64,000 nt of DNA from Paenibacillus amylolyticus (lineage in GTDB: Bacteria > Bacillota > Bacilli > Paenibacillales > Paenibacillaceae): assembly GCF_029689945.1 (NCBI RefSeq), contig NZ_CP121451.1, positions 5,208,001 through 5,272,000 of the forward strand. Direction: 5' to 3'. The notes under the pieces were generated by a model that did no database searches, had not been told where the DNA came from, and saw nothing but the letters and a program-made list of their open reading frames with translations. Every line of letters starts with the position of its first letter. The first letter of the stretch is position 1. The position numbers and the translations under genes were made by a program. Positions 44,210 to 57,835 of this stretch are shown here, in pieces.

Positions 44210-44893
44210 CTAAAGCGTAACGGCCATGTACCCCAGACCTTTTTCAGTTACAATCCCCTCAGCTAAATGGAGAGAAGCGAGCTGTTGCCGTAATCTTGTA
44301 ATGTTGGCAGTGAGCGTGTTGTCATTCACGTATTGATCATCATCCCAGAGTCTTTTCATCAGTTCATGTCGTGAGATGACCTTATTATTGGACCTTATTA
44401 AAATTGAAAGAATAAAGAATTCATTTCTGGTCAGGCCAATCGTCTTCCCATCCTTATGTATTTCGCAACTTTTCAAATCAATAATCGCCTGATTCCACTC
44501 CATTACATCGGAGGATGCTTCTTCATACGTATACGCTCGACGAAGAATAGCCTGGACCTTGGCAAGAAGTACATCCATATGAAAAGGCTTCTGAACGTAA
44601 TCGTCCGCCCCTAAATTCATGGCCATTACCATATCCGTCGGATGGTCTCTGGATGAAAGAAAAATAATCGGAACTTTGGACACGGCGCGTATTTCCCTAC
44701 ACCAATGAAACCCGTCAAACTTGGGAAGCTGTATATCAATAATCACCAAGTGAGGCCGATGATCTGCAAAGGCATCCATCACATGAGAAAAATCATTAGG
44801 GTGACTTACTTCATAAGACCATTGACTTAACCCTTCTCTAAGCGCATCCAGAAGAAGAAGGTCATCCTCAATAATGAAGATATTCATATTCAT
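44210..44893 (-). CDS. yxdJ: Bce-type OmpR-family response regulator (YxdJ-like)
   Basis: Regulator of 227 residues. The receiver has D10/D11, phospho-acceptor Asp53 in VIIDIQLPKFDG and Lys in DDYVQKPF. The C-terminal winged helix includes IGLTRNEFFILSILI and DNTLTANITRLRQQLASL, a hallmark of the OmpR group. GGAGGG precedes the ATG. First gene of the order regulator-kinase-transporter-YxeA, the arrangement of yxdJKLM-yxeA. It should bind the palindrome at 43087-43102 and activate the transporter genes. Confidence 0.88.
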   Translation of the reverse strand: MNMNIFIIEDDLLLLDALREGLSQWSYEVSHPNDFSHVMDAFADHRPHLVIIDIQLPKFDGFHWCREIRAVSKVPIIFLSSRDHPTDMVMAMNLGADDYVQKPFHMDVLLAKVQAILRRAYTYEEASSDVMEWNQAIIDLKSCEIHKDGKTIGLTRNEFFILSILIRSNNKVISRHELMKRLWDDDQYVNDNTLTANITRLRQQLASLHLAEGIVTEKGLGYMAVTL

Positions 44894-44938
44894 GTATAAC
44901 CCTCCTTTTGATGTAAATTACTTACTGGTAAATGTGCT

Positions 44939-44960
44939 CATACAACGACGTCCGATGGGC
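44939..44960 (-). repeat. Cassette-array left boundary motif
   Basis: On the minus strand ATCGGACGTCGTTGTATG closely resembles GTCGGACACATCGTTATATG at 53862-53885. The pair brackets the attC-like array. The GTTGTAT core is one mismatch from the integron core GTTRRRY. A partner core GGCTAAC overlaps the stop of the nucleotidyltransferase gene at 45008-45014, and a perfect 7-bp hairpin (GTCACTC/GAGTGAC) lies between them. Confidence 0.5.
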
Positions 44961-45008
44961 TTAGGGGCTGGATACTGGTCACTCGCTTCTCAGAGTGACA
45001 ATATGCTG

Positions 45009-45776
45009 TTAGCCAGTGGAAGTTCTGGAAGCAGCGATTCTATTTAAGGCATTCTCAAAATAGTCATACACTTGATCTGCAATTTTCAGAAACTCTTCAA
45101 CAGATACATCGCTATCCAAGTAACAAGCATACAGATACTCAACTAAAGCGCCGTCAATCGAGCAATAATTTATTATGGCATCCTTCATCTTAATGATTTC
45201 ATCTTCCCATACCCCTGTATCTTCTAGAACCAAAGAGTATAATGCGCGAATTAATCTCTTCGAGTAACCTTTAATATATCTAGTTTTCATTGCATTATCA
45301 CTAGCATTAGAAAGTGAACGATGTACACGATCAACTTCCTCCTTGGTATCTGTATTCAAGTCTACAATAAATTCTGGAGAAATTATGATCGGTGCTACTT
45401 TTTCACCAATATCCTGCCCATGGATGCATACACAGATGACCTTAACCCAAAAACCCCAATCATTCGGTCTACTCAATACATCATCAATCGAGCAAATAAT
45501 CGTATCCACCTTAGTGACGAATGGATATTCTTTCAACAGCCTGTCTTTGATATTTGACAATCTTTCGTAATCAATATGCTCGGGATTTGCACATACAATA
45601 GTAAAGTCTGCATCTGACTTAAAAGGTGTAGCTGTTCCTTTTGGAATCGAGCCACACATATAAATGCTATGAATCTTATCTTTGAATTCCTTAAGTACAT
45701 ACTCCACATACTTATCAACCAAATCCTTATATTCACTTTGTATGGTAATTCTGTTAATAACCTTCTCTAATATCAT
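45009..45776 (-). CDS. Nucleotidyltransferase (aminoglycoside adenylyltransferase-like)
   Basis: Protein of about 255 residues. The polymerase-beta-type signature CGSIPKGTATPFKSDADFTI has G-S and the metal-binding D-x-D, as in ANT(3'')/ANT(9) and AadK enzymes that adenylylate streptomycin or spectinomycin. The C-terminal half is helical, as in those enzymes. Start at the ATG after GGGAG. It lies in an AT-rich, same-strand cassette-like array, and aminoglycoside adenylyltransferases are classic integron cassettes. Drug specificity is not evident. Confidence 0.75.
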   Translation of the reverse strand: MILEKVINRITIQSEYKDLVDKYVEYVLKEFKDKIHSIYMCGSIPKGTATPFKSDADFTIVCANPEHIDYERLSNIKDRLLKEYPFVTKVDTIICSIDDVLSRPNDWGFWVKVICVCIHGQDIGEKVAPIIISPEFIVDLNTDTKEEVDRVHRSLSNASDNAMKTRYIKGYSKRLIRALYSLVLEDTGVWEDEIIKMKDAIINYCSIDGALVEYLYACYLDSDVSVEEFLKIADQVYDYFENALNRIAASRTSTG

Positions 45777-45806
45777 ATGGACTGCTCCCAACCTAAGAAT
45801 TTTTTC

Positions 45807-45824
45807 GGCTAATGTTCTTGTATC
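45807..45824 (-). repeat. attC-like right-end remnant
   Basis: Minus strand GATACAAGAACATTAGCC corresponds to the conserved right end GAATACAGGAACGTTAGGT of the longer elements. It lies 31 bases upstream of the nucleotidyltransferase start. The left half of the element is absent. Confidence 0.5.
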
Positions 45825-46579
45825 TACTTCTCACCAATCATAAAAAATTGTTTAATCTGTTGGTTTTCCGTATTAAATGGTTGCCCCTCATAATCTACAA
45901 ACCGCACATTCTTGAAACCTGCAGCCTCCATAATTTGTACATAACAATAACTGTTTACATTCTTTGCACCCAATCCTGTCTTATGAATCATTGTATCATT
46001 GGGTATATCAAATATGATCTCTTCGTGTTCCGAAACACATGTCGCTCTATTATATTCGTGTCGTACCAAGCGATAAATTCCATCGCGATATGTCCAAGTG
46101 CGGCAGTCATTGTGTCGTTCATCAGAATGGTATTTAAAATAATTTTCATTCCACATCTCATAGATAAAGATACCAGTTGGCTTTAAAGCGTTGAACACTC
46201 GATTCGTAGATACCCCTGTTAATCCAACAGGATCAGTCCAAATCGCTACATCAAATTCTTTGTCAAAGTTTAACTCATTAAAATCACAAACAAAATAACT
46301 TGCCTTTTCAAAAGCTCTATTGTAATCCCTTGAATATTCAATGAAAGTATTTGAGATGTCTATACCTGTAACCTCATAACCTGGTTCCAACCATACTTGA
46401 TGATACCTAGATATTCCACAGGCAATGTCCAGAATTTTGGTTGAATTCTCAGGAAATAACTTTTGCAGCTTTTCAGCCATAACGATCTGGGTTTCAAGAT
46501 CATCGAAACCCCATTTGATATATTCTTTGTCGTAATCTTGCTCACCATATCGATTGAACTTTTCTACTATAATTTTCAT
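45824..46579 (-). CDS. Class I SAM-dependent methyltransferase
   Basis: Protein of 251 residues. Motif I is TKILDIACGISRYHQVWLEP (the second Gly-x-Gly is relaxed), then YEVTGIDISNTFIEYSRDYN and KEFDVAIWTDPVGLTG. The C-terminal half contains several aromatic and Cys residues. GAGGGGGATAA precedes the ATG. AT-rich and separated from its neighbours by attC-like right ends, so probably an acquired cassette. Substrate unknown. Confidence 0.8.
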   Translation of the reverse strand: MKIIVEKFNRYGEQDYDKEYIKWGFDDLETQIVMAEKLQKLFPENSTKILDIACGISRYHQVWLEPGYEVTGIDISNTFIEYSRDYNRAFEKASYFVCDFNELNFDKEFDVAIWTDPVGLTGVSTNRVFNALKPTGIFIYEMWNENYFKYHSDERHNDCRTWTYRDGIYRLVRHEYNRATCVSEHEEIIFDIPNDTMIHKTGLGAKNVNSYCYVQIMEAAGFKNVRFVDYEGQPFNTENQQIKQFFMIGEK

Positions 46580-46615
46580 TTATCCCCCTCATTTCTTACG
46601 ATTTAAGGTTCTTTC

Positions 46616-46643
46616 CCATAACGTTAATGTATTCACGAACACG
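46616..46643 (-). repeat. attC-like right-end remnant
   Basis: Minus strand CGTGAATACATTAACGTTAT matches the conserved right end (L' GTGAATAC, R' GTTAT) of the array repeats. It lies 37 bases upstream of the methyltransferase start. It overlaps the stop region of the peptidase gene. Confidence 0.5.
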
Positions 46644-47247
46644 AGAGGATATATTCTTCATCTTTAAGCCTTGTCACCTTACATTTCTCATTGAATTCAA
46701 ACTCAACTATTCTCTCTTCAATTGTTTTATTCGTACTAACTTTAAATATGTCCTCTCGATCATAGTGAGGAAAAATAAGCTTGTCTGTCACACCTAATGC
46801 CTTAAAATCCGTTAAATTCATTATGTTCATCTGTGGAGTAAAGAAATCCACAATGTTAATATTCGGCCCCAGTAATAACGTTCCTGCACTTACTCCAACG
46901 ATAATTACATCCTGTGCGGCCAGTGTTCTGATAATTTCATCAGCACCACTTTTCTTAGCGTAATACAATAATGTAAATGGATTTCCACCATTAATATATA
47001 TCACATCTTTATGTAAGAGAATTTTAGGATCATCAAATTCAATATCTACAAAATGGATATGCCGAAATCCCATGTCCTTAAACTCTTGCAATGCCCTTTG
47101 TGCATATCTATTCGTTTCTTTTGAAGGGGACGCTGTCGTAATAATTGAGACCTTTAATTGAGAAATATCTCCATCAATCAAATCCACAAATTGATTTTTA
47201 ATATCTTCAGTATAAAAGCCACAAGAGGTTAGTAACAGGCTACTCAT
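46633..47247 (-). CDS. Peptidase S51 (dipeptidase E-like)
   Basis: Protein of 204 residues of the class I glutamine-amidotransferase-like S51 family. The nucleophile Ser is in IIVGVSAGTLLLG, preceded by IYINGGNPFTLLYYAKKSG. The catalytic His is probably in LIFPHYDRED. Such cytoplasmic enzymes cleave Asp-x dipeptides or cyanophycin-like substrates. GGGGAGTTCA precedes the ATG. A complete attC-like repeat lies upstream. Exact substrate unknown. Confidence 0.85.
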   Translation of the reverse strand: MSSLLLTSCGFYTEDIKNQFVDLIDGDISQLKVSIITTASPSKETNRYAQRALQEFKDMGFRHIHFVDIEFDDPKILLHKDVIYINGGNPFTLLYYAKKSGADEIIRTLAAQDVIIVGVSAGTLLLGPNINIVDFFTPQMNIMNLTDFKALGVTDKLIFPHYDREDIFKVSTNKTIEERIVEFEFNEKCKVTRLKDEEYILSCS

Positions 47248-47314
47248 TGAACTCCCCGCCCTTAACTATTAGTTTATCAATCTTTGTAATTTGATTAGGC
47301 ATTTCTCTAATTTC

Positions 47315-47471
47315 TGCTAACGTTCCTGTATTCACTTTCACTGGCTTAAGGGGATATGCCCCCGGTCAGAAGGCTTTGGATAGTGGAGGGTTGTCCGGCT
47401 AATTCCACTTTCCCGAAATGTCTCTCTGGACCGATAACCAAATGGAATGATACGTGAATATGTGGTTATAC
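47315..47471 (-). repeat. attC-like recombination element D (157 bp)
   Basis: On the minus strand it opens with GTATAACCACATATTCACG (R'' GTATAAC, L'' ATTCAC) and closes with GTGAATACAGGAACGTTAGC (L' GTGAAT, R' GTTAGC). The L boxes TATTCAC and GTGAATA are complementary. Internal short hairpins include GGGG-CATAT-CCCC. It lies between the 3' end of the 47503 gene and the start of the peptidase gene, as an attC site would. Confidence 0.6.
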
Positions 47472-47502
47472 ACAGAACCCTCCTTTACGAACAAGCTATT
47501 CG

Positions 47503-47880
47503 CTATCTGTTTTTTAACTCTTCCAATAACTCTAACTCCTCTTCCTCTGAAAGTTGTTCTTCCGCTCTAGTTATTGTTTCATCTATCTTTCGTACTTTTA
47601 ATCCTCTTTTTATGAGCCATTCTTCACCGGGATGCATTGTAGTTGCTGGATGTGGGTATACATCCTTACTTGTAATTTCCTCATCAATGATGTAAATGTA
47701 TCCACGTAACTTACCATTATGAAGTCTTGTACCATTCTCATCGAAAGCAACCATAGATGGTTTATGTGAAAAGATTCTTGCTAGCTCTCGATCCTGAGTT
47801 ATTGTGCTTCCGACTAGTAGTTCATTTAAGAGCATTGGAGAGCCATGGAACCAAGGTTTACTGTAGTCCCATTCTTTCAT
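47503..47880 (-). CDS. Hypothetical protein, possibly ADP-ribosyltransferase-like
   Basis: Protein of about 125 residues. KPWFHGSPMLLNELLVGSTI, TQDRELARIFSHKPSMVAFD and LRGYIYIIDEEITSKDVYPH, then GEEWLIKRGLKVRKI, give an order reminiscent of small ADP-ribosyltransferases such as Arr: a His-Gly-Ser near the start, then a Tyr-rich strand and a late Glu. This is a weak structural guess. The C-terminus is a Glu-rich helix. The start is the second of two ATGs, 6 bases after AAGGTG. Lies in the cassette-like array; function unknown. Confidence 0.6.
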   Translation of the reverse strand: MKEWDYSKPWFHGSPMLLNELLVGSTITQDRELARIFSHKPSMVAFDENGTRLHNGKLRGYIYIIDEEITSKDVYPHPATTMHPGEEWLIKRGLKVRKIDETITRAEEQLSEEEELELLEELKNR

Positions 47881-47960
47881 CATTATCACCTTCATTTAAG
47901 TTTTATTATCTTTCTTCTTTTTACTTGTTCTTCAGTTTCTTCGCTTCTGTTTACATCAGT

Positions 47961-48833
47961 CTAATATTCAAATTTGAGCTGAAGCGAATCACAAATTGGC
48001 TTATAGCCGATCTTTTGATAGATCTTATTTGAAGTGGAATTTGCTAAGTCTGTATATAAGACGCATTTAGTAAATCCTTTATCCAATGCAAGTTGGCTTA
48101 TTTGCGCAACAATTGAAGTAGCGTAACCCTTTCTACGCTCATATGGAGGGGTATATACGAACGCCACACCGATAGCCGTCTCCATTTCCCTTGTGTATCC
48201 TGCCATAGAAACGGGGATCCCGTTGTCGTCCTCTAAAATATAGAGTTTTTTCGATGCTATTCTGTAGAGGTAAGGCTCTGGATCCTGCGGGATAGACATT
48301 TCTGTTTTGCCATAACTCGCCGCTGCAGAGAATGCTTCAACCCAGTATGGGAAAAAGTGAATATCTTTTTCATTTAGCAATCGAACTCTGCCAAGTTTTT
48401 GGATGTATGGGTTTACTGCTGTAAGTTCATATATACGTTGGCTCATGGTTGTTATAAAAGCAATCCCCTTGCGCTTGGTGTATTCTTTGGCAAAATACTC
48501 TGCCAAGTTTTTTTCAGTTATCACACCAGGAATTTCATGGCCCTGTAGCCCTTCTATCAAACAGCTTATAGCCTCTGCGTTAATTACGTTGTCTGTTGCA
48601 TAAAGTGTAACATTGTGTGGAGGTGTCATTAATGCGGTAAGTTGTATGCCTGTATCATCCGAAATAGTTACCATAAGCCAATTTACAGGGTCACGCCAAT
48701 CTGTTTTGTCTTTTCCTTCATGTCCGATTATGATATTACCAAGAGGAATCATATTTTGTGCCTCATGACGCATCAGCACTTCATAAGTGTCTCTGTAAAA
48801 CTCATGCACATCCGTATACAATTTAAATTGCAT
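47961..48833 (-). CDS. GNAT family N-acetyltransferase (two-domain)
   Basis: Protein of 290 residues. The C-terminal half is a GNAT domain: VAFVYTPPYERRKGYATSIV as CoA motif and CVLYTDLANSTSNKIYQKIG, then YKPICDS. The N-terminal half, with conserved aromatic segments, is typical of longer GNATs of this type. GGAGGAATTTCG precedes the ATG. No attC-like end separates it from the downstream 47503 gene, so both may belong to one cassette with the DUF2834 gene. Substrate unknown. Confidence 0.83.
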   Translation of the reverse strand: MQFKLYTDVHEFYRDTYEVLMRHEAQNMIPLGNIIIGHEGKDKTDWRDPVNWLMVTISDDTGIQLTALMTPPHNVTLYATDNVINAEAISCLIEGLQGHEIPGVITEKNLAEYFAKEYTKRKGIAFITTMSQRIYELTAVNPYIQKLGRVRLLNEKDIHFFPYWVEAFSAAASYGKTEMSIPQDPEPYLYRIASKKLYILEDDNGIPVSMAGYTREMETAIGVAFVYTPPYERRKGYATSIVAQISQLALDKGFTKCVLYTDLANSTSNKIYQKIGYKPICDSLQLKFEY

Positions 48834-48940
48834 CGAAATTCCTCCTTTTATCTGTTCAACGTTTTTCCGGATTCCTCATAAAACCATTCTTCCTTGCGAT
48901 TTGCTTATTAGAAAACAGGAAATTATATTCGTGAAAATGT

Positions 48941-49264
48941 TTAACTATCTCTCATTTTTTCCATTTGAATTTCACGCAATAATAAGAAGAATGGCAATCC
49001 AAATGAAACGCCAACGGTTAATGTTCCAATGATCGGTATCCACTTATGCTTTATGCCAATTCGCTTTCCTTCATATAAAATAAATCCAATCAAAACAACT
49101 GCTGAGATTATTATATCCAACCAAGCAAATGCACTAATTCGATTCTCTGTTGCTTCATTTAATAGGATCTTCAGATTAAATCCGTTCTCACTAATCCAAG
49201 GAATAAACTCCATGTAAGGAATTATTATTCCCAGAATGGTTAACATCCCATAAAAATATTTCAA
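48941..49264 (-). CDS. DUF2834 membrane protein
   Basis: Protein of about 107 residues with three predicted helices (YGMLTILGIIIPYMEFIPWI, AWLDIIISAVVLIGFILYEG, PIIGTLTVGVSFGLPFFLLL). The LLREIQMEK end is also characteristic of DUF2834. The start is the TTG 6 bases after GAGGTG. Function of the family unknown. An attC-like repeat lies 70 bases upstream. Confidence 0.82.
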   Translation of the reverse strand: MKYFYGMLTILGIIIPYMEFIPWISENGFNLKILLNEATENRISAFAWLDIIISAVVLIGFILYEGKRIGIKHKWIPIIGTLTVGVSFGLPFFLLLREIQMEKMRDS

Positions 49265-49333
49265 GCCTCTCACCTCAATAAATCTTAGTTATAAAAGTTT
49301 TCAATGGTCTTTAACGATCTTTACAGGTATTTC

Positions 49334-49444
49334 AGTTAAAGTTTCTGTATTCAATGACCGCACAGGGGTTTCTGCTGAAACCCCTCTTCGAAATCCTTCC
49401 GCAGACCAAGGCTGAAGGACCGCTGCTTGAATATCATGTTAGGC
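49334..49444 (-). repeat. attC-like recombination element B (111 bp)
   Basis: On the minus strand it opens with GCCTAACATGATATTCAAGC, an exact RYYYAAC core, a 5-base spacer and an L'' box, very like textbook attC sites. It closes with CATTGAATACAGAAACTTTA. L boxes TATTCAA and TTGAATA are complementary. A perfect internal hairpin GGGGTTTC-AGCA-GAAACCCC is present. The R' core (CTTTAAC) is degenerate. Confidence 0.65.
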
Positions 49445-49471
49445 GATGCCGGCCTGATCTCCCTATTACAA

Positions 49472-50263
49472 TTAATCCCTAGTCCACGTTGCCCGGGTAT
49501 ATCCGATTCTCATACCTACTCTTTCCATATTCCGATGGCTTTGCGAGCCATATGAGCACTGACTAACAACGAGATTACAATTTTTGTAGGCATCATGAAT
49601 TCGTCTACGTAATAGATTTGTTTGAAATCCTTTATTTCGATATTCCGGTAGTGTTGTCGCAAATGTTAATGAAGCAACATTGTCCTCTATATACATCACA
49701 GCTACTGCAACTGGCTTCCCCTGATCCAATCCCAGATAATAGTGCCATCCCGGACGGGAAAACAATACTCGGTTATTTGCAGCTACGTGTGCTTTCCCAT
49801 CAAGAGATAATCCTGTACCTAAACAATGAATTTCTGCATATGTATCGAACTCATCTTCGTGTAGTTCACGAATTTCCAGCTTCTGATTAGCAAATGAGTT
49901 TAGATTCCCAGGTTCACAAAAAAGCGTTGTATGAAATCCTGTTTGATAAAAGCCTTCATTATGAAGCGTTTTCATTACTTTTTGATCTATCTTACCAGGG
50001 ATGACTTGAATCTCATAATTCCGCTCCCGCTCATTATAAAAGTTTAAGATATCTTCAATGACATCTTCAGAAATTCTGCCCTTAACATTATTAAATAGAC
50101 CCCAGGGCATGGTTTTACTATAAAACGCTGTGCTTTCCCCGAATCGTTTAATTTCAATTCCCTCAGGATTTCCTTCTCGTTCTCTAATTGCAGTCATTCG
50201 ATCAACCATATAATTAATTTCAGATTTTTCTAACCTATCCGCTAGTTCCAAATTCAATATCAT
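49472..50263 (-). CDS. GNAT family N-acetyltransferase
   Basis: Protein of 263 residues. The C-terminal GNAT domain shows VASLTFATTLPEYRNKGFQT, then NLLRRRIHDAYKNCNLVVSQ as the CoA-binding part and RNMERVGMRIGYTRATW at the end. The N-terminal half is a degenerate first domain. GGGGATAAATTGA precedes the ATG. Both sides carry attC-like repeats, making this one of the cleanest single-gene cassettes in the array. Substrate unknown. Confidence 0.8.
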   Translation of the reverse strand: MILNLELADRLEKSEINYMVDRMTAIREREGNPEGIEIKRFGESTAFYSKTMPWGLFNNVKGRISEDVIEDILNFYNERERNYEIQVIPGKIDQKVMKTLHNEGFYQTGFHTTLFCEPGNLNSFANQKLEIRELHEDEFDTYAEIHCLGTGLSLDGKAHVAANNRVLFSRPGWHYYLGLDQGKPVAVAVMYIEDNVASLTFATTLPEYRNKGFQTNLLRRRIHDAYKNCNLVVSQCSYGSQSHRNMERVGMRIGYTRATWTRD

Positions 50264-50321
50264 TCAATTTATCCCCTTCCTTAATTTGCATATCATTGTG
50301 CAATTACTCCTGAGTTGTTTC

Positions 50322-50434
50322 ACCTAACGTTCCTGCGTTCATGAACCCCGAAGAGGTTGTCTGCTGAAATTCATCTTCGAAATCCATCCCAGACCAGGGC
50401 TCCAAAGGAGCCGATGCTTTAATATATGTTATGT
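50322..50434 (-). repeat. attC-like recombination element A (113 bp)
   Basis: Minus strand from ACATAACATATATTAAAGC to GAACGCAGGAACGTTAGGT. The R' core GTTAGGT is an exact GTTRRRY and is complementary at 6 of 7 positions to the R'' core ACATAAC. A perfect hairpin GGCTCC-TTT-GGAGCC lies inside. It follows the stop of the 50469 gene by 35 bases and precedes the GNAT start by 59. Confidence 0.65.
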
Positions 50435-50468
50435 AGAGTATGACTCTTCTTGAGTAAACAACAAATTA

Positions 50469-51086
50469 TTAATCTTGAAGATCCTCAATATGATCAGAAC
50501 TAATCCAACTCATTTCTTTAATTTGTAAAATATCTTTAAATTGGTCCACTAAATTAAAGTAGGATTCGAGAGCGTTAATATATTCATAATTCATTATTGT
50601 TTTTAGCTGATCAATTTTGTCTGATTCCAGTTCAAACAGCTTGAAATTATCCAGTGCACAATCAATGAAAAGATTTTTGATCGAGTTATTAAAATTCTCA
50701 CTCTTTTTTAGTTTTTCCCTCAAGGCTTCTCCTTCAGAATTTGTATATAAGAACTCATGAGGATCTGCCTCTGGAAAATCTTCTTCAATAATTTCAATTA
50801 ATAAATTGTCTTCGAACTCGTAAGACAAATCAAATTTTGAAATAATTTGCCCCTTGAGAATGATTGAATATCCCCAACCATGATCCTCAAAATTATAAAA
50901 ATATAGAATGGGTATTTCTTCTGAAGTAGTAAGAATGTCAATGGGAACTTCATCGTTCACCTCTGTTTCTTTAGTGAAAAACAATAGCCATTTATCATTC
51001 AACTCAGCAAAATAAATGGGGTTACTCTGTTCAATCCTGTCCTTATACTTCGTAATTGTAAGATTTCCCGCAGTAAACTCACTCAT
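50469..51086 (-). CDS. Hypothetical acidic protein
   Basis: Soluble, strongly acidic protein of 205 residues (many Asp/Glu), rich in Ile, Leu and Asn codons of low GC. YFAELNDKWLLFFTKETEVN and LYFYNFEDHGWGYSIILKGQ suggest a small beta-rich N-terminal domain, then a helical C-terminus. GAGGAGAAAAAT precedes the ATG. No family recognised. The size and acidity recall immunity proteins, but nothing in the sequence proves it. Flanked by attC-like sequences. Confidence 0.6.
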   Translation of the reverse strand: MSEFTAGNLTITKYKDRIEQSNPIYFAELNDKWLLFFTKETEVNDEVPIDILTTSEEIPILYFYNFEDHGWGYSIILKGQIISKFDLSYEFEDNLLIEIIEEDFPEADPHEFLYTNSEGEALREKLKKSENFNNSIKNLFIDCALDNFKLFELESDKIDQLKTIMNYEYINALESYFNLVDQFKDILQIKEMSWISSDHIEDLQD

Positions 51087-51117
51087 ATTTTTCTCCTCTA
51101 TCTGTAAGTTTTATTTC

Positions 51118-51140
51118 ACCTAACGTTTCCGCGTTCATTA
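51118..51140 (-). repeat. attC-like right-end remnant
   Basis: Minus strand ATGAACGCGGAAACGTTAGG, continuing to GTTAGGT, matches the right end of element A almost base for base. It lies 32 bases upstream of the 50469-51086 start and just after the end of the next gene. Confidence 0.55.
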
Positions 51141-51143
51141 ATT

Positions 51144-51593
51144 TTATTTAGTCCGTTGAACTTCCTTAATAATTGGTTCAGAAACGGATACAACATCCAC
51201 GATATGGTTAAGACATGCGATGCCATAATGCTTAAAGGGACCTGGGTAATCCTCAGAAGCAAATGTTCCTACTTTAATAAAGTCTAAGTATCTAGATTTA
51301 CTGTAAATCCTAAAGATCTTACCCTCAAACTCTTCATAATCATCCCATGAAGTGTAACTTTCATTTCGAATTGAATATCCAATGTACCATTCAAAATCCA
51401 TTTGTAATAAAGGCAATGTTTCATCTACATCAATCGAATATGTATCTTTGATTTCAATCTTTCCAATTGTTATCGTTTCAGGAGTATCACTAGTTCTACT
51501 TCGACTGAAGAGTAATCTAAGGGTGTTCTCCTCAGGTTCATATATTTGATCGAGATAAATATTCTTTACATTGAACAAATCTGAATACTCCAA
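51144..51593 (-). CDS. Hypothetical protein
   Basis: Soluble protein of about 149 residues with an all-beta look: alternating hydrophobics in LYLDQIYEPEENTLRLLFS-like strands, then TLPLLQMDFEWYIGYSIRNE and FEGKIFRIYSKSRYLDFIKV. The late segment FKHYGIACLNHIVDVVS resembles small immunity-type proteins, by impression only. The TTG start is preferred because AAGGAAG lies 7 bases upstream. Part of the cassette-like array. The 260 bases upstream contain no gene; a weak attC-like TTATAAC core occurs near 51660. Confidence 0.55.
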   Translation of the reverse strand: MEYSDLFNVKNIYLDQIYEPEENTLRLLFSRSRTSDTPETITIGKIEIKDTYSIDVDETLPLLQMDFEWYIGYSIRNESYTSWDDYEEFEGKIFRIYSKSRYLDFIKVGTFASEDYPGPFKHYGIACLNHIVDVVSVSEPIIKEVQRTK

Positions 51594-51865
51594 ATGACTC
51601 ACTTCCTTTTATTTTCTTTTTCGCACTTGCAGAGCATCAACGATGAAGCAAAAATGCATTGTTATAAGCTGCCCTTCTTCTTCGATTCCACATCCTTATA
51701 TGTCTTGTGTGTTTTTGTCTTTAATATGTCTTTCGTATTTTATCTTTTGGTTCTCTCTTTTGCTCCTATCAAATCCGTTTCCGCCCCACCATACGGGACT
51801 TAATCCTTGATATAGAATACATGCTGAACGCACAATCAAAATTCAAGAGGATTGTTGTCCTCCCT

Positions 51866-52306
51866 TTAATTCGCAATAGACAAATATGTATTAATGACAT
51901 GCACAATACCAAAAAGTACTGTTGGTATAATAGCCAGATAATTTTGAAGCCAAATCTCAGCTAATATAAAATATACGACCGGGAGAACGGCCATCCCCAA
52001 AAAAATAATCGAGTTTGCGTTTGATGTAAAATACAATATCCATAGCCCATAATAAAAAATCAACATTATTGCCATACCAATTATATATGGACATCGCATT
52101 TCAGATGCTTGTTCTCTTACAACAAATATCAGAAGAAAGAAAAATATCGCCTGACTGCCGTGCTCCAAAACATCTAAAATCAAATGGCTATTTGCATTAT
52201 TTCCTAATATATCTGACGCAGGAATTAAAAAATAAAATATATTTGGTATCATTGACAATAAAAAGATGATCAGACCCTTCCATGAAAAACCAAAATGATA
52301 TTTCAT
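51866..52306 (-). CDS. Membrane protein of unknown function
   Basis: Protein of 146 residues with four to five hydrophobic segments (GLIIFLLSMIPNIFYFLIPA, AIFFFLLIFVVREQ, YIIGMAIMLIFYYGLWILYF, IIFLGMAVLPVVYFILAEIW, YLAIIPTVLFGIVHVINTYL). GAGAGGATCAA precedes the ATG, which overlaps the stop of a short upstream frame by 4 bases. AT-rich. No family recognised. Confidence 0.7.
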   Translation of the reverse strand: MKYHFGFSWKGLIIFLLSMIPNIFYFLIPASDILGNNANSHLILDVLEHGSQAIFFFLLIFVVREQASEMRCPYIIGMAIMLIFYYGLWILYFTSNANSIIFLGMAVLPVVYFILAEIWLQNYLAIIPTVLFGIVHVINTYLSIAN

Positions 52307-52443
52307 TTGATCCTCTCTTTCGCATAATAGAAATATTCTTTAGTTTGCACTTTATTATGTGATATTCCTCTTGATGGCCAAGGAGCATAACTACGATATG
52401 GAAATTCATTGTTATATGGTACACCTTCTGTTATTCCATTCAT
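52303..52443 (-). CDS. Short reading frame translationally coupled to membrane protein gene
   Basis: A 46-codon frame (MNGITEGVPYNNEFPYRSYA, then PWPSRGISHNKVQTKEYFYY) ends in TGA overlapping the membrane-protein ATG. An alternative upstream frame reads EYIYNVTVEKWDEWNN and would join it if one base were removed near 52425. The real gene may therefore be slightly longer and start after AGGAGA near 52478. Aromatic-rich, soluble, no family recognised. Could be a genuine small protein or a decayed one. Confidence 0.35.
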   Translation of the reverse strand: MNGITEGVPYNNEFPYRSYAPWPSRGISHNKVQTKEYFYYAKERIK

Positions 52444-52531
52444 CCCACTTTTCAACTGTTACGTTGTAAATGTATTCTTTCTCCTATATTTAATATTTGT
52501 TATTAATTGGCCTTCTTCGATTTTGCTATTC

Positions 52532-53113
52532 CTAATATTCAACGTTTAAGTGAGAAATACAATTATATAATTGACAATCCCATCTGAATTGGTCTTTATT
52601 TAAAATGGTTACCGATGTATTATGGAGGTGTTCTTCTGTATCGATGTGCGGAATTAATTTCTTTAAAGTCAGTCCAATCAGTGCTCCATGACTTATTATC
52701 AATATTTTCTTGTCAGGGTGTCTTTCAGAGATGTCCATTAGGCATTCCATTCCTCTTGTGATTATCTCAGCGTTGGATTCTATACCAAGATCTAGTTTGG
52801 ACCATCCGTATCCCCACTTACTAACTCTATCTTGTTCAGTTGTTCCCTCAATAAGACCGCAATTTATTTCTCTTAATCGTGAATCAGTTCTCACTTCAAC
52901 ATTCTTAATCCTTCCTATCATTTCTGCTGTTTCGAGTGCTCTTGATAAATCACTTGAATAAATATAATCCCACTCCTCGTTCTCCATTCTCTTAGATAGT
53001 AATTCAGCTTGTCTTCGTCCCTCATCATTTAAAGGTATATCGACTTGTCCTTGTGCCCTGTATTCATCATTCCAGTTTGTTACTCCATGTCTTATAAGTC
53101 CTATCAATGTCAT
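52532..53113 (-). CDS. Histidine phosphatase family protein
   Basis: Phosphoglycerate-mutase-like phosphatase of 193 residues. The catalytic motif is LIGLIRHGVTNWN (R-H-G). DIPLNDEGRRQAELLSKRME and YSSDLSRALETAEMIG contain the second Arg, REINCGLIEG the acid, and IISHGALIG the second His. Such enzymes dephosphorylate small molecules such as phosphoglycerate, cobalamin precursors or fructose bisphosphates. GAGGAAAAAGT precedes the ATG. Upstream lies an attC-like repeat. Confidence 0.88.
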   Translation of the reverse strand: MTLIGLIRHGVTNWNDEYRAQGQVDIPLNDEGRRQAELLSKRMENEEWDYIYSSDLSRALETAEMIGRIKNVEVRTDSRLREINCGLIEGTTEQDRVSKWGYGWSKLDLGIESNAEIITRGMECLMDISERHPDKKILIISHGALIGLTLKKLIPHIDTEEHLHNTSVTILNKDQFRWDCQLYNCISHLNVEY

Positions 53114-53161
53114 ACTTTTTCCTCTTTCATTTTATGTTTTTAAGGTACTGGCCGATCTTTC

Positions 53162-53274
53162 ACCTAAAGCTCCTGTATTCATGAAACTCGAGGGGTTATC
53201 TGCTGAATCCACTTCCTCGAAAAGAATCTGCAGACCAAGGCTGTTAGGACCGCCACGTAAATACGTTGTTATAA
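53162..53274 (-). repeat. attC-like recombination element C (113 bp)
   Basis: Minus strand from TTATAACAACGTATTTACG to ATGAATACAGGAGCTTTAGG. L boxes GTATTTA and TGAATAC are complementary apart from one wobble position. The opening resembles the V. cholerae repeat start TATAACAAACG. Inside, the stretch around GCCTTGGTCTGCAG is shared with element B. It lies between the 53289 gene and the phosphatase gene start. Confidence 0.6.
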
Positions 53275-53288
53275 ACATTCAGGTCCTT

Positions 53289-53771
53289 CTACGTAATACT
53301 CCCACTATTTGTAGATTTAATTGTTTCAATAGCTTCTTTGGCTATTATTCGTATCCCTTCATTTTTGTGGTTTTCATAATGATTTAATAACGATAAATAT
53401 TTCTTGTTAAAGGTTAAACCCAAAGCATAAATCGCATCTGGAAGTAGTTCAGAATTAATTTGTTCGATATTGTCTGCTAAATAATCCAACGAATTCCTCG
53501 AATAATCAGTAATTAGTTGAAAAATATCTTCTTTAACTTCCTTGTTATGATCAACGAACAAATGCATCTCCAATACTATAATAATCTCATCGAAATAAGT
53601 TAAGTTATATCCAAAATAAGGATCCAGATACTTATCTAAACAAAACAACAAGCTCCGTTTCTCAATAAAATTAGCATTAGTCAAAAATTCATTAATGGCT
53701 ACAGCACCACTGTTAACTATTTCTTCGTGGTGTTTTGTGTATGTCACATAACTTCCACCTGTTTCATTCAT
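53289..53771 (-). CDS. Hypothetical helical (HEAT-like) protein
   Basis: Soluble helical protein of about 160 residues. LADNIEQINSELLPDAIYAL and HKNEGIRIIAKEAIETIKST have the alternation of HEAT or Imm-type helical repeats. The start is the ATG after GAGGGTG (MNETGGSYVTYTKHHEEI); a longer frame upstream lacks a ribosome site. Last gene of the attC-like array on the right. Function unknown; an immunity role is a guess. Confidence 0.6.
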   Translation of the reverse strand: MNETGGSYVTYTKHHEEIVNSGAVAINEFLTNANFIEKRSLLFCLDKYLDPYFGYNLTYFDEIIIVLEMHLFVDHNKEVKEDIFQLITDYSRNSLDYLADNIEQINSELLPDAIYALGLTFNKKYLSLLNHYENHKNEGIRIIAKEAIETIKSTNSGSIT

Positions 53772-53861
53772 TATACACACCCTCTTAATAAAGATGAGAA
53801 CGATCATTTATGTTTATAAAGCTAAGGTTTTGAAAATTATTATATTCACTTGCCTCGATTA

Positions 53862-53885
53862 CATATAACGATGTGTCCGACGGCT
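53862..53885 (-). repeat. Cassette-array right boundary motif
   Basis: Minus strand GTCGGACACATCGTTATATG resembles the motif at 44939-44960 and overlaps the stop of the VOC-family gene. GTTATAT is one mismatch from GTTRRRY. It marks the outer edge of the array. Confidence 0.5.
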
Positions 53886-54264
53886 AACTAAAACAAGTAC
53901 AAATCATTAATATATTCCCATCAGGATCTTTAAATGTGAAATCCGATAAATCAGGGTATGTTTGAATTTCAGTTACAATCTCTGCGTCCAATTCTTTTAC
54001 AAACTGATATGCTGCATTGATATCAACCGCACTCACAGTAAATAATGGTTGATTCGACGTTTTCAGTTCGTATATCTCATCAAAACAATGATTATCAAGT
54101 GTTATCCCCGAACGTCCAGGTCCCATATCGAAGGTATAAATTGGTCCGTGGATTTCATTTTTTACTTCAATTCCAAGAAGTTTGCTGTACCAGTGTACAG
54201 ACTTCTCTAAGTTTCTTACATGAATAAAGATTGTATCTACCCTGTTTGCAATTGGACTGCTCAT
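53884..54264 (-). CDS. VOC family (glyoxalase/bleomycin-resistance-like) protein
   Basis: Protein of 126 residues with the paired beta-alpha-beta-beta-beta modules of the vicinal-oxygen-chelate fold. VDTIFIHVRNLEKSVHWYSK, then LLGIEV, opens the first module with the metal His, and PDLSDFTFKDPDGNILMICT closes the second with the usual F-x-D-P-D-G-N. Such proteins bind bleomycin-type drugs or act as lyases or dioxygenases. GGGAGG precedes the ATG. Substrate unknown. Confidence 0.88.
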   Translation of the reverse strand: MSSPIANRVDTIFIHVRNLEKSVHWYSKLLGIEVKNEIHGPIYTFDMGPGRSGITLDNHCFDEIYELKTSNQPLFTVSAVDINAAYQFVKELDAEIVTEIQTYPDLSDFTFKDPDGNILMICTCFS

Positions 54265-54391
54265 TAATGTTAACCTCCCATGAAAAACTCGAATAAATTG
54301 TTGCTATAAAAATTTGCACTGGTTTTTTATAACATCATATCTACGAACATCGTAAATACATTTCTTTTTTACGATTATCCGAACTACGTAT

Positions 54392-54595: not shown

Positions 54596-55693
54596 TTACT
54601 TTGCTCCACCACTCCAGACCACTCGCTCGCTCATTGCTTTGTGCTGTGCAATCAGGCAGAGTTCTGCCGCTTTGAATGCATGTTCCTGTGTCATGGCTGT
54701 CTCGGTGCGATCCAGACAATCGCGGATGAGCTGACCGAAGAACGGGTAACCGACTTTGCCTTTTACACTGTACCTAAACTCGCCTTCATGGTTTACCAGA
54801 TAGACTTGATCACCTTCCGGCTCTCTCGCTACATCAATATACTTCCGCAGCTCGATATAACCGTCCGTTCCCAGAATAACCGTACGTCCATCGCCCCATG
54901 TGCCCAGACCATCCGGTGTGAACCAATCCACTCGGAAGTAACCGGATGCTCCGTTATCACCAATCAGCGAAGCTTCACCGAAGTCCTCCAGTTCCGGGAA
55001 CTGCGGGTGATTAAAGTTATGCACACGACTGAACCCTACCTCAGCGTCCGTGCATGATGCAAACGTCAGGAATTGTTCGATCTGATGACTCCCGATATCA
55101 CAGAGAATGCCGCCATACTGCTCATGCTTGAAGAACCAGTCGGGTCTTCCTCCGGCATTCAGGCGATGCGGACCTGTACCCATAACTTGCACTACTTTGC
55201 CGATTGCCCCTTGTTCAATGAGCTGCCCCGCATAGATCGCACTTTCTACATGCAGTCGTTCACTGTAATACACCATGTACTTTTTGCCTGTTCGCTTTAC
55301 TTCTTCTCGTGCAAGCTTTAATTGCTCCAACGTGGTAAATGGGGCTTTGTCTGTAAAATAATCCTTACCTGCGGCCAGAACTCTCATGCCAAGCGGCGCA
55401 CGATCTGAAGTGATCGCTGCACTTGTCACCAATAACACCTCATCATCTGCAAGCACTTCTGCCTCAGATCCAGCGGCTTGAGCCTGCGGGAACTGCTTCC
55501 GGAATGCCTCTACCTTCGCCGGGTCGGGATCATATACCCACTTAAGGGTAGCTCCAGCCTCCAACAATCCTCCAACCATGCCGTAGATATGCCCGTGATC
55601 TAGCGCAACAGCAGCAATCGTGAACTCACCCGGACCACATACGACCTCTTTTGTGACACTTTTTGGTGCATAGAACATCCCGTCTTTAGCCAT
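54596..55693 (-). CDS. Gfo/Idh/MocA family oxidoreductase
   Basis: NAD(P)-dependent sugar or inositol dehydrogenase type, 365 residues. The Rossmann start is VALDHGHIYGMVGGLLEAGA with YDPDPAKVEAF. The catalytic-side motif is AGKDYFTDKAPFTTLEQLK (the usual E-K-P-x replaced by D-K-A-P), and YYSERLHVESA follows. GILCDIGSHQIEQFL carries the conserved Asp-x-x-x-His pair. GGGATGGGATGAC precedes the ATG. Last of three genes reading isomerase-dehydrogenase-dehydrogenase, a common sugar or inositol catabolic unit. Substrate unknown. Confidence 0.87.
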   Translation of the reverse strand: MAKDGMFYAPKSVTKEVVCGPGEFTIAAVALDHGHIYGMVGGLLEAGATLKWVYDPDPAKVEAFRKQFPQAQAAGSEAEVLADDEVLLVTSAAITSDRAPLGMRVLAAGKDYFTDKAPFTTLEQLKLAREEVKRTGKKYMVYYSERLHVESAIYAGQLIEQGAIGKVVQVMGTGPHRLNAGGRPDWFFKHEQYGGILCDIGSHQIEQFLTFASCTDAEVGFSRVHNFNHPQFPELEDFGEASLIGDNGASGYFRVDWFTPDGLGTWGDGRTVILGTDGYIELRKYIDVAREPEGDQVYLVNHEGEFRYSVKGKVGYPFFGQLIRDCLDRTETAMTQEHAFKAAELCLIAQHKAMSERVVWSGGAK

Positions 55694-55750
55694 GTCATCC
55701 CATCCCTATTATAAAATTTTGTTTACAATGATTGGTCTAATATAACGTCT

Positions 55751-56921
55751 TCATTTAAACGTCTGACTCAGATCAGCAGGTTGACTGCCACTGAATGCCT
55801 TGTCTTTCTTCGTCGTGGAACCCGCAATGCGTTCCTGCAGATGCTCGTAGAACAGATCCTCGTCGATCGGCAGATCCACCCAGTTATCCGTCCAGGTAGA
55901 CAGCAGCATCGCATTCGACAATGTTAATCCGTGTATACCATCCTCACCGGGAGCAATAAGGGGTGCGCCTGTACGAATCGCATCAACCCAATTGCGAATC
56001 AGACCCGGGTGACCTGTTTCCACACCTGTAATCGGAATCTCGCATTTCCAACATTCAGGCTGTCCAAAACCTCCGGTAAACCGCTGATTGAATTCAGGCT
56101 CGGATTCCCGAAGTCGCCAGAATGTCAGCTTTCCATCTTCGATTACGATTTTACCTCGGTCTCCGTTGACCTCGAATCGGTTCGTACCTGGTGCTTCACC
56201 TGTAGTCGTTACGAAGACACCTGTTGCACCATTTTCATACTCCACATAAGCGGTTACATCATCTTCCACTTCAATGTTCCGATACTTGCCAAACGAACAG
56301 AAAGCACGCATTCGCACCGGCATCATGCCAATGGTCCACTGCCACAGATCCAGTTGATGCGGGTCCTGGTTAATCAGTACACCGCCGCCTTCACCTGCCC
56401 AAGTTGCCCGCCAGCCGCCGGAATCATAGTAACTCTGGGATCGGTACCAGTTCGTAATAATCCAGTTGGTACGCCGTACCTCACCAAGTTCCCCGACGCA
56501 ATCAAGTCTCTTAGTTTAATGTAGAGTGGGTTGGTCCGCTGGTTATACATCATGGAAAAGACTTTACCACTGGCTGCGGCCGCCTCATTCATCTTGCGCA
56601 CCTGTTTCGTATACACCCCGGCCGGCTTCTCGATCATGACATGCAAGCCATGCTGGAAAGCCTGGATGGCCTGTTCCGGGTGGTCATAGTGCGGCGTTGC
56701 AATAATGACTGCATCAATCGTACCCGAAGCCATCATCTGCTCTGCATCCTGCCAATAGGTGACCGTAGCCGGCAGATGACTCGATACCCAGCTCTCCATC
56801 TCTCTTCTTACATCACATACCGCGACCAGTTCTGCACCAGGTACTTCTCCGGCCACCAACGTTCTGGCATGTGCTGCCCCATGTTACCTATGCCAATAAC
56901 CGCTACTCGTACGATACTCAT
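55751..56921 (-). pseudogene. Gfo/Idh/MocA family oxidoreductase, frameshifted twice
   Basis: About 390 residues when repaired. Start at 56921, ATGA-overlapping the isomerase stop: MSIVRVAVIGIGNMG, the Rossmann glycine motif. At the C run 56877-56880 one base is missing (then AHARTLVAGEVPGAELVAVC). At 56491-56494 another is missing (LIASG, then ELGEVRRTNWIITNWYRSQS). MIEKPAGVYTKQVRKMNEAA contains the catalytic E-K-P, and GGGVLINQDPHQLDLWQWTI contains the Asp-x-x-x-His of the active site. Both breaks are in four-base runs. Probably an intact enzyme in the organism, working with its neighbours. Confidence 0.85.
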
Positions 56922-57835
56922 GACTGCTCCTCCTCGTCCACACGACGCTCAATTTCGGCGAATACGTCTGCAAAATGCTGTAACATCGCCTTGGAATCCA
57001 AGGCACCACTAAAGTCCTCAATGCCGTAATATCCGTCATATCCGACGGTACGAAGATCCCGCACCATCTGTACCCAATCGACCATGCCTTCAGTCAGCGG
57101 CGTCCAGTGACATTTCCAGACTGTATTCAGTGCCACTCCACTGCTCTGCTCAGTCACATTAGCTTTTTGCGAATCTTTATCTTCTGGTGCAAACCACCCG
57201 GCATTTTTCACATGCACATGAGCCAGGTAAGGGCCTAGCAGCTCAAGTCCCATCCGATGATTCTCATATCCTTCATGCACCATATTGCCTGGATCGTACA
57301 ATACACCCACATGCTGCGGGTCCAACGATTGCACAAGCCGATAGGCCAGCGACGCCGTCGGTGCAATCGTCTGATGATGCGTCTCAACAATCGCCTTGAT
57401 GTTGTACTGTTTGGCCAGATCCTGTACTTCACTCAGGTAATCAACGGCTTTACGATACAACTCAGGATAACGGGTCTGGCGATCATATCCAGGAACACCC
57501 ACACGCATCATGGATGCTCCCAACCCGGCCGCAGCCTGAAACGCCTGCTCGGTGGCAGACAGATCTCCACAGTTCAGATACGGAACGAGTGCAATGGATT
57601 TTCTGCCTTGCCCTGCCGTCGCTTCACGAAAAACAGGGACCTGTTCTTGCCAGCGGCTTGGATCTACGGAGCATCGATTATTTCTCCAGTAAGAAGGCTC
57701 TTCGGATATCGCATCTTCAGGAATTCCGCGGAAACGCCACTCTATTCCTTCAATCCCCGCTGCTGCCGCAGCCGATGCCAATTCTTCTGCATTCAGATCA
57801 GGGGTAGCCACGGTGAATACAGACAGTTTCATCAT
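56918..57835 (-). CDS. Sugar phosphate isomerase/epimerase (xylose isomerase-like TIM barrel)
   Basis: Protein of 305 residues of the AP-endonuclease-2/IolE-IolI-like barrel. LASAAAAAGIEGIEWRFRGI, IKAIVETHHQTIAPTASLAY (Glu and His that bind metal), VGVLYDPGNMVHEGYENHRM and LAHVHVKNAGWFAP (Asp, His, His), then GYYGIEDFSGALDSKAML (final Glu) outline the metal site. AAGGAGATGG precedes the ATG. First gene of the operon with two Gfo/Idh/MocA dehydrogenases. Likely isomerises a keto-sugar or inositol derivative. Confidence 0.88.
   Translation of the reverse strand: MMKLSVFTVATPDLNAEELASAAAAAGIEGIEWRFRGIPEDAISEEPSYWRNNRCSVDPSRWQEQVPVFREATAGQGRKSIALVPYLNCGDLSATEQAFQAAAGLGASMMRVGVPGYDRQTRYPELYRKAVDYLSEVQDLAKQYNIKAIVETHHQTIAPTASLAYRLVQSLDPQHVGVLYDPGNMVHEGYENHRMGLELLGPYLAHVHVKNAGWFAPEDKDSQKANVTEQSSGVALNTVWKCHWTPLTEGMVDWVQMVRDLRTVGYDGYYGIEDFSGALDSKAMLQHFADVFAEIERRVDEEEQS

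Follow-up and report, generated by a model that had tools for sequence, protein, structure and literature searches.

A worn gene-cassette array in Paenibacillus amylolyticus, probably the secondary array of a chromosomal integron general in the genus

A 64,000-nucleotide stretch of Paenibacillus amylolyticus DNA (contig NZ_CP121451.1, positions 5,208,001 to 5,272,000, from a genome assembly of 6.83 Mb; hereafter the window) carries an array of genes separated by attC-like repeats. Very probably this is the secondary cassette array, worn and without an integrase, of a kind of chromosomal integron that occurs generally in Paenibacillus. By sequence comparison, relatives are shown to carry putatively complete integrons, each with an IntI-like tyrosine recombinase, an attI site about 127 nt downstream and attC-separated cassettes that read in the same direction. 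On the same showing, a cassette unit runs from the TTA after one attC (or attI) through the G of the next attC. In the mechanism that we propose, the integrase would act on the folded attC, recombining between G and TT to release cassettes as circles, which it would then insert at either attI. One integrase would serve two, sometimes more, arrays, the second of them in trans. The integrase gene of the window's genome appears to have decayed to a relic, which would leave the remaining array open to nothing but loss, rearrangement or use as donor DNA, and a rearrangement would have removed the array's far end.

Attachment sites and cassettes

An earlier note, made from the letters of the window, had described an integron-type cassette array without a nearby integrase in a Gram-positive genome, and our results support that description. 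Where the note spoke of about a dozen unrelated, AT-rich genes on the minus strand, there are 13 non-overlapping long open reading frames (ORFs) on that strand between 45009 and 54264, with a GC content of 33-39% across the array against 41-52% in the flanks at 40-45 and 54-58 kb. The families that it named were recovered with Pfam: array genes match NTP_transf_2, methyltransferase, Peptidase_S51, GNAT (two genes), DUF2834, histidine phosphatase and glyoxalase families, and the other five of the 13 have no Pfam match above cut-off. Its four long repeats (right ends 47314, 49333, 50321 and 53161) and three shortened right ends (51117, 46615 and 45806) lie where it placed them. The extent that it gave, 44939 to 53885, stops short of an attI-like site at 54326-54359, to which the feature reaches. 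Six of the seven right ends stand 31-68 nt from a start codon, as it had said of all; the one at 45806 is 15 nt from a TTG start at 45791. An exact GTTRRRY, which it had assigned to the 47314 element (GTTAGCA), is found in the 50321 element (GTTAGGT) instead. The compensatory change that it saw in the inner boxes (TATTCAA/TTGAATA against TATTCAC/GTGAATA) holds between the 49333 and 47314 elements, whereas the 53161 element pairs imperfectly (by eye).

A right-end weight matrix was built from six window right ends, and sites found through this matrix, 61 in number and all from other genomes, were made into a covariance model, R2. In the attC covariance search that the earlier note had proposed, R2 recognizes the four full elements at 81, 77, 59 and 44 bits (E 2.9e-17 to 2.5e-8), far above noise, and also finds three window stretches at 14-15 bits, two of which are right-end fragments. 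Because the repeat family D1 has six copies in the window and a model made from other genomes' sites finds the four elements, we do not regard the repeats as chance. A right-end match elsewhere in the same genome (C1:1971847) was set aside, as its surroundings gave no model match.

Covariation in relatives, together with the R2 matches in the window, gives the elements the marks of attC, namely the boxes R''/L''/L'/R', conserved folding and a varied loop. Among 29 gapless 98-nt sites of relatives, L'' and L' form a stem of eight pairs with three hairpins. In these sites 94.7% of cells are paired, 13 of 26 pairs have changed on both sides, none of 500 shuffles scored as high, and slid partners, which served as a control, pair in just 31-38%. 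The stem of the 98-nt sites is continuous, and four bases face seven between stem and outer box; a control fold of the canonical aadA1 site has a bulged base within its stem. One stem pair is often mismatched in the alignment that includes longer sites (paired in 35 of 61), and for this reason we make no general claim that extrahelical bases are absent. Two loci hold unusual elements: an attC otherwise ordinary but with a run of 14 G (L028:7078-7202), and two attC matches on the strand opposite to the remaining array, possibly inverted cassettes (L078:12760-13191).

Because the cassette that follows supplies the final bases of R' in an integron, R'' should complement the junction before its own gene. 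This relation was scored in 20 integrase-linked stretches and 20 second-array stretches of relatives, both of which are described below. The integrase-linked sample began with 124 right ends, 101 of them with a left end and 82 also with an adjacent predecessor; 80 pairs were entered. R'' matches the preceding R' in 48 of 71 informative pairs and its own R' in one. When all 80 adjacent pairs are counted, the three variable letters all match in 57, against a permutation mean of 5.6 and a maximum of 15 (10,000 permutations). R'' of the second arrays likewise fits the preceding R' in 66 of 118 informative pairs versus its own in three (permutation mean 7.4, maximum 19, 5000 permutations). The window shows the relation exactly for its first cassette, where TTATAAA at attI complements the first outer box, and nearly (7/8 letters, by eye) at one of three further junctions, from 50321 to 49333.

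Cassettes are shared between arrays. We cut 299 cassettes from 41 array stretches, the window included (one stretch was without elements); 149 homologous pairs join different arrays, 16 cassette pairs join an integrase-linked and a second array at up to 95% identity, and 152 of the 299 have no relative in the set. Homology between shared cassettes begins no more than 21 nt before the G^TT in 92 of the 132 alignments that do not run into the left flank. The methyltransferase gene and one GNAT gene of the window recur in both second and integrase-linked arrays, and five of the 13 window genes have no match, or distant ones only, in other array stretches. The tail S51 - (methyltransferase) - nucleotidyltransferase keeps its order in relatives (by coordinates), as expected of an array's old end.

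These data bear on a reading of the repeats as attC look-alikes, that is, dispersed palindromic repeats (akin to repetitive extragenic palindromic sequences and bacterial interspersed mosaic elements, REP/BIME, or to a non-autonomous transposable element) that lie between genes by chance. The elements are indeed repeated, palindromic and numerous, and part of the array is inherited in stable order. However, the complementarity of R'' to the preceding R' has no explanation if a fixed element was dispersed; the right ends in second arrays, window included, lie 230 on the array strand and none on the other; matches adjoin a tyrosine recombinase; and shared cassettes mostly begin at G^TT. We therefore consider look-alikes exceedingly improbable. 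The two outcomes that the earlier note had named as telling against a cassette array, the same repeats at unrelated sites and a fixed gene order, were not borne out either: strong matches in a sample of 398 genomes of the phylum are those of four genomes of the genus, and gene content differs between related species, the level at which the comparison was made.

Integrases and attI sites of relatives

A search of 60 genus genomes with the IntI model TIGR02249 gave nothing above cut-off. Among the matches listed, the best ones of many genomes came in two pieces, at model positions ~3-177 and 232-315, with up to ~115 and 104 bits. The 20 integrase-linked stretches, of 20 kb each, were fetched around such recombinases: 17 hold an integrase ORF piece of at least 100 residues, two hold partial TIGR02249 matches, and one (L022), which lies between two copies, is without integrase. 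The right-end weight matrix has strong matches in 19 of these stretches and only two weak ones (14 bits) in L022. The attC elements share the reading direction of the integrase gene and are, with few exceptions, located downstream of it.

The best relative of the integrase among solved structures is IntI4 (2a3v), in which 67 residues face 25. From GKGxKDR to HxLRH the integrases measure 59-61 residues in 43 of 44 cases (one not measurable), against 100 in IntI1, 101 in IntI4 and 99 in a phage IntI. IntI has been defined by an additional domain around patch III (PMC9668308, in the passage on that domain), and a domain of this kind (~40 residues) is lacking in the relatives' integrases. A predicted structure (mean predicted local distance difference test score, pLDDT, 83; predicted template modelling score, pTM, 0.54) has no helix between residues 273 and 291. 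It has a confident N-terminal alpha/beta domain at residues 10-65, and residues 343-355 are uncertain. The N-terminal domain weakly resembles HARP (11 of 44 at E up to 0.1, best 6e-4). The integrase alignment, A5, takes in 44 of 55 translated loci, eight being not open frames as cut and the near-duplicates L054, L055 and L057 having been dropped.

A first tree (55 rows, all used) sets a group that includes IntI apart from the genome's own Xer proteins (99/98), with long branches. In a second tree, also with long branches, canonical IntI forms one clade, and the approximately unbiased test (p-AU 0.388) does not separate a single clade of domain-less integrases from a placement of canonical IntI within them; this tree left out ten dense rows, L128, the Microvirga sequence and one own Xer, and two more own Xer rows are absent from it. 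As to SOS control, 16 upstream regions contain no Bacillus DinR-like box at one mismatch or fewer and two poor matches at two mismatches.

The complementarity rule also served to locate the integrase-linked attI: in 15 of 17 loci scored, a conserved site behind the integrase is complementary to the first R''. Of the other two, one matched a different right end and one was not scorable. Scoring covered 17 of the 20 stretches, L022 being without integrase and L023 and L031 without an integrase ORF piece. The attI sequence, ...TTTACGAAGTACATAAATTAGATG^TTA, lies 126-128 nt behind the integrase stop in most loci; in two loci, where its form diverges, the distance is 100 nt.

In L024, L025, L026, L027 and L034 the integrase gene is broken or truncated while attI and arrays look fresh, which suggests that the integrase is often lost or is supplied in trans from another copy. 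In genome G022 a long low-complexity repeat (L021:585-1184), whose minus strand would encode a Ser-Ala run, lies upstream of the integron.

Could the cassettes instead be moved by host XerC/XerD (or XerA-like) recombinases, with the linked IntI-like gene a passenger? The window's genome does have Xer-like recombinases and an array without integrase, and the linked recombinase scores above the cut-off of the XerA/integron model NF040815 (223 bits against 220) and below that of TIGR02249 (206 against 265). Yet attI stands at a fixed distance behind the recombinase gene, its other occurrences being at the second array and in a few more places; 19 of the 20 stretches fetched around the gene contain arrays, and the twentieth holds no integrase; the recombinase is separate from the own Xer proteins in the first tree; and the genome without integrase has an eroded array. 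We judge movement by Xer enzymes very unlikely.

A different origin would be from canonical IntI-type cassettes of Gram-negatives, stranded by off-target insertion as an ordinary cluster of attC sites lacking an integrase (CALIN), which is defined as two or more attC without a nearby integrase (PMC9024848). The same survey, in its text on Firmicutes, reports a few CALINs in different genera (PMC9024848), as such an origin might leave behind. Against it, none of the 60 genus genomes has an IntI match above the curated cut-off, the linked integrase is of a different, domain-less kind, and the array starts at a conserved attI-like site. The attC matches, moreover, are of their own sequence type and genus-wide: at E 0.01, R2 matches 74 of 75 genus genomes, with 2 to at least 41 matches each, all arrays together. 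An origin from canonical IntI-type cassettes is thus very improbable.

The second array and the window's genome

The window's array adjoins an oxidoreductase cluster (54596-57835) that is present in 59 of 75 genus genomes, its own and 58 others. Second-array stretches were fetched from 20 of these 58 relatives, mostly those with the closest cluster matches. All 20 neighbourhoods have the cluster followed by an attI-like site with 22-26 of 30 letters as in the integrase-linked attI (that of G016 has lost its GTTA), and all 20 then go on into attC arrays, with 231 R2 matches altogether. The attI junction complements the first R'' in 15 of 21 loci, window included; five loci miss by script (G070 fits only through a one-base shift, by eye) and one is not scorable. 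Integrase-linked and second attI have a common module, ~85 nt long, that includes two direct repeats; no integrase relic turned up next to the second attI. Main and second arrays have the same neighbours in several species. These comparisons show that the relatives fetched have, at one and the same position on the chromosome, what is presumably a conserved secondary array provided with a separate attI.

The putative attI adjoining the window's array has 24 of 30 letters in common with the integrase-linked attI and 25 of 26 with the form beside the oxidoreductase cluster in relatives, and is the sole match to the attI pattern in its genome. Across the genus the pattern matches 64 of 75 genomes, and the reversed pattern gives seven matches. 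Several genomes (G039, G061, G047, G048, G053 and others) have 4-5 attI-pattern matches each, several tens of kb apart, and a variant of the pattern, TTTTCGAAGTGAATGAATTAGATGTTA, recurs in G025, G067 and G053.

The main integron of the compared relatives lies downstream of a radical-SAM/B12 gene (named by eye). The window's genome has an orthologue of this gene at C1:6121197-6123239, one attC remnant (31 bits) ~1.2 kb downstream of it, and an integrase relic ~16.6 kb downstream (residues 312-346, 35 aligned, 57% identity, E 5e-8). Relic and attC remnant, ~15 kb apart, point to a decayed main integron (L230/L231, C1 6.085-6.122 Mb), near whose relic no good attI was found, the best having 19 of 27 letters. 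The search for an IntI-type recombinase that the earlier note had suggested did not turn one up in this genome: there is no integrase at 1e-60, and the best match is Xer-like, at 98 bits. Many relatives do have an integrase gene. With its four full attC-like elements, the genome has a CALIN presumably because its integrase was lost, on an array already separate from the integrase.

The response-regulator flank at the other end of the array was considered as its anchor and ruled out, five relatives having no attC there; 44907-45009 is therefore read as a rearrangement junction. The last cassette of the window's array has no attC at this junction. In three relatives with both on one contig, the response-regulator locus and the oxidoreductase cluster are 0.78-2.3 Mb apart. 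The features of the window are collected in Table 1; a search of the window with Rfam gave nothing above gathering scores, and no tRNA was found in it.

Table 1. Features of the cassette array and its flanks, in window coordinates, from the attI-like end
Feature	Position	Strand	Evidence
attI-like site (core, G^TTA crossover)	54326..54359	-	homologous module back to ~54421
VOC/glyoxalase-family gene, first after attI	53884..54264	-	Pfam Glyoxalase 1.9e-12; no tblastn match at 1e-5 in other 40 array stretches
172-aa cassette gene, no assigned family	53289..53807	-	ORF; no Pfam match; no match in other array stretches
attC-like element, first of array	53161..53275	-	covariance model R2 58.6 bits, E 8.2e-12
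Histidine-phosphatase cassette gene	52532..53113	-	Pfam His_Phos_1 7e-47; distant matches only (25-27% identity), in four array stretches
Possible eroded attC left half (TATAACAATG...)	52392..52417	-	repeat family D5
146-aa membrane cassette gene	51866..52306	-	92-97% identical in arrays of 5 relatives, orthologous locus
Possible eroded attC left half	51642..51667	-	repeat family D5
152-aa cassette gene, no assigned family	51144..51602	-	63% across 87 aa in one relative's array
Eroded attC, right end only	51117..51147	-	repeat family D1; R2 13.8 bits, E 0.55
205-aa cassette gene, no assigned family	50469..51086	-	ORF; no Pfam match; no match in other array stretches
attC-like element	50321..50435	-	R2 76.7 bits, E 3.4e-16
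GNAT-type cassette gene	49472..50263	-	Pfam Acetyltransf_1 3.1e-4 (barely above cut-off); 94% and 90% in second arrays of G074 and G027; 90% in integrase-linked array of G020
attC-like element	49333..49445	-	R2 81.1 bits, E 2.9e-17; fold z -3.2
DUF2834 cassette gene	48941..49273	-	Pfam DUF2834 3.3e-31; no match in other array stretches
GNAT-type cassette gene	47961..48833	-	Pfam Acetyltransf_1 3.1e-8; 84% and 75% in second arrays of two relatives
130-aa cassette gene, no assigned family	47503..47895	-	85-93% in second arrays of 3 relatives, plus one 19-aa fragment
attC-like element, long form	47314..47472	-	R2 44.2 bits, E 2.5e-8
S51-peptidase-family cassette gene	46633..47247	-	Pfam Peptidase_S51 5.8e-26; 88-93% in 15 of 20 relatives' second-array stretches, one partial
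Eroded attC, right end only	46615..46645	-	repeat family D1; R2 14.6 bits, E 0.36
Methyltransferase cassette gene	45824..46579	-	Pfam Methyltransf_31 2.4e-9; 96% in G045 second array; partial, 91-92%, in G016 second array and G020 integrase-linked stretch
Degenerate attC, right end only	45806..45829	-	weight matrix 17.8 bits; missed by R2
Nucleotidyltransferase-domain cassette gene, last of array	45009..45791	-	aminoglycoside-nucleotidyltransferase type according to the earlier note; Pfam NTP_transf_2 7.9e-6; second arrays: 84-88% in 14 stretches, one partial; integrase-linked arrays: 80-82% in 4 stretches
Putative junction: array cut, joined to response-regulator locus	44907..45009		homology with 5 relatives stops at 44892-44913; relatives' loci without attC match
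Conserved flank: oxidoreductase/TIM-barrel gene cluster adjoining attI	54596..57835	-	family names by eye; in 59 of 75 genus genomes, own included

Several findings weigh against reading the window's array as a worn secondary array of a genus-wide integron. The support is sequence comparison between species, from which recombination at G^TT is inferred, and the 20 second-array stretches are a non-random set, being mostly the closest cluster matches, some with attC nearby already known. The title of a 2001 paper by Messier and Roy reportedly calls the IntI domain necessary for activity, and the integrase here is without such a domain. The complementarity rule leaves 22 of 71 and 49 of 118 informative pairs, in integrase-linked and second arrays respectively, that fit neither the preceding nor their own R', and two other testable junctions of the window break it (by eye), the fit being exact only between attI and the first attC; missed elements and decay are the likely cause of misses. 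Neighbours are kept in 64 of 237 slots and the order of the distal tail is kept, so part of the array would be old and stable. On the right side, the end falls 0-12 nt after the G in just 32 of 123 alignments of shared cassettes, because attC interiors diverge. Single-strand folding, another check put forward by the earlier note, came out in favour of the 49333 element (z -3.2), while the other three elements fold no better than shuffles (z -0.35, -1.27 and -0.64); as 49333 alone folds clearly better, the window copies are regarded as eroded.

Distribution and comparison with known systems

Under the stricter filters applied to the 398 phylum genomes, 11 have an R2 match at E 0.001: the four genomes of the genus have 4 to at least 9 matches, and seven others have one weak match each (32-42 bits), two of them (G444 and G623) being also integrase-positive. 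With the integrase alignment, matches were obtained in 87 of the 245 genomes of the family, spread over 14 of 19 genera (1e-60, fragments counted), and in 33 of the 398 genomes of the phylum, spread over 28 of 266 genera. Roughly half of these 33 matches (17 by coordinates) cover the N-terminal extension; the rest may belong to another group.

Related loci were taken from the best 80 of 457 relatives. The more distant named loci number 56 (L071-L128 without L116 and L125), and 28 of them have R2 matches above 40 bits. Of the other 28, sixteen break off no more than ~1 kb from the integrase, and none of the twelve that extend further is labelled Paenibacillaceae. A looser box-pairing scan, read against letter shuffles, suggests attC-like elements in some of these twelve and in L106: they were picked out in L096, L106, L108 and L117, with weaker ones in L095, L099, L110 and L112. 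The scan found none in L090, L104 and L113, and in L100 and L103 only matches at shuffle level or of low complexity. No convincing 12-base repeats were found in loci without model matches. Two further integrase relatives (L127 and L128) lie in an Undinarchaeales and a Gemmatimonadetes metagenome-assembled genome, on contigs that end less than 1 kb past the gene.

Plasmids of Pontibacter, Rufibacter and Chryseobacterium (L225, L227 and L224) carry integrase relatives followed by small same-strand genes and attC-like elements, which are short (~54-71 nt) in the first two and longer in Chryseobacterium. The GKGxKDR-to-HxLRH spacing is 58 in two of these three Bacteroidota integrases, the third being not measurable. 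With attI included, the chain of complementarity holds (by eye) at 3/3, 3/5 and 5/5 junctions, respectively; two of the Chryseobacterium junctions span a ~38-nt palindrome, which weakens those two. The box-pairing scan gave 2, 4 and 14 matches, where shuffles averaged 0.4, 0.3 and 1.1. The same scan found none on a Microvirga plasmid.

We moderately favour a broader proposal, that these systems form a distinct second integron lineage. Integrases without the IntI additional domain would run complete attI/attC systems across Bacillota, chiefly in Paenibacillaceae but also in some Clostridia, as well as on plasmids of Bacteroidota, one integrase serving several attI in trans. Canonical IntI may have arisen inside this lineage by domain gain, so that recognition of folded single-stranded attC would be older than the domain and possible without it. 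The missing domain may also explain why surveys find integrons very rare in Bacillota. In its text on Firmicutes, the IntegronFinder 2.0 survey gives one complete integron and few CALIN and calls them extremely rare (PMC9024848). One review counts Firmicutes among the phyla with integrons in a brief mention (PMC8618304), and a passage of another puts forward unsuitable host factors as what restricts mobile integrons from spreading to Gram-positives (PMC8946536). A literature search on integrons of Paenibacillus, Bacillota and Bacteroidetes, covering titles and the beginnings of abstracts, with subscription papers and preprints outside its scope, met no description of these systems among the papers listed.

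Integrons have been described as largely a Gram-negative device, and here a Gram-positive genus appears to have them almost throughout. Three questions become open to test: how an enzyme that lacks the additional domain recognizes a folded attC, by what route integrons arose from Xer-like enzymes, and whether several attI sites are served by a single integrase. A large reservoir of soil gene cassettes, little noticed so far and in part carried by Bacteroidota plasmids, is also indicated.

Among known systems, CALINs resemble the window's array, which has four attC and no integrase near. CALINs are usually without attI, whereas this array starts at a conserved attI-like site, in the same chromosomal place in the relatives fetched. 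The integron of Limnochorda pilosa, according to the survey's text the only complete one in Firmicutes and found with the program's IntI profile (PMC9024848), is alike in being a complete integron in Bacillota. XerA and archaeal-type tyrosine recombinases (NF040815) share a core without extra domain, with a score barely above cut-off; the Paenibacillus integrase differs from them in its linkage to attI and cassette arrays and in its extra N-terminal domain. The relatives' arrays are chromosomal, vertically kept, rich in cassettes and uniform in attC, as in sedentary chromosomal integrons of the Vibrio, Xanthomonas and Treponema types. Those systems share with the Paenibacillus ones an IntI-like recombinase, an attI, mostly single-gene cassettes, fairly uniform attC, a G^TT crossover and an older, stabler distal end. 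The Paenibacillus systems differ from them in their Bacillota host, in an integrase without the additional domain and with an N-terminal alpha/beta extension, in having integrase and cassettes in the same direction, in possessing a second array, equipped with an attI of its own, at another chromosomal site, and in attC with three inner hairpins.

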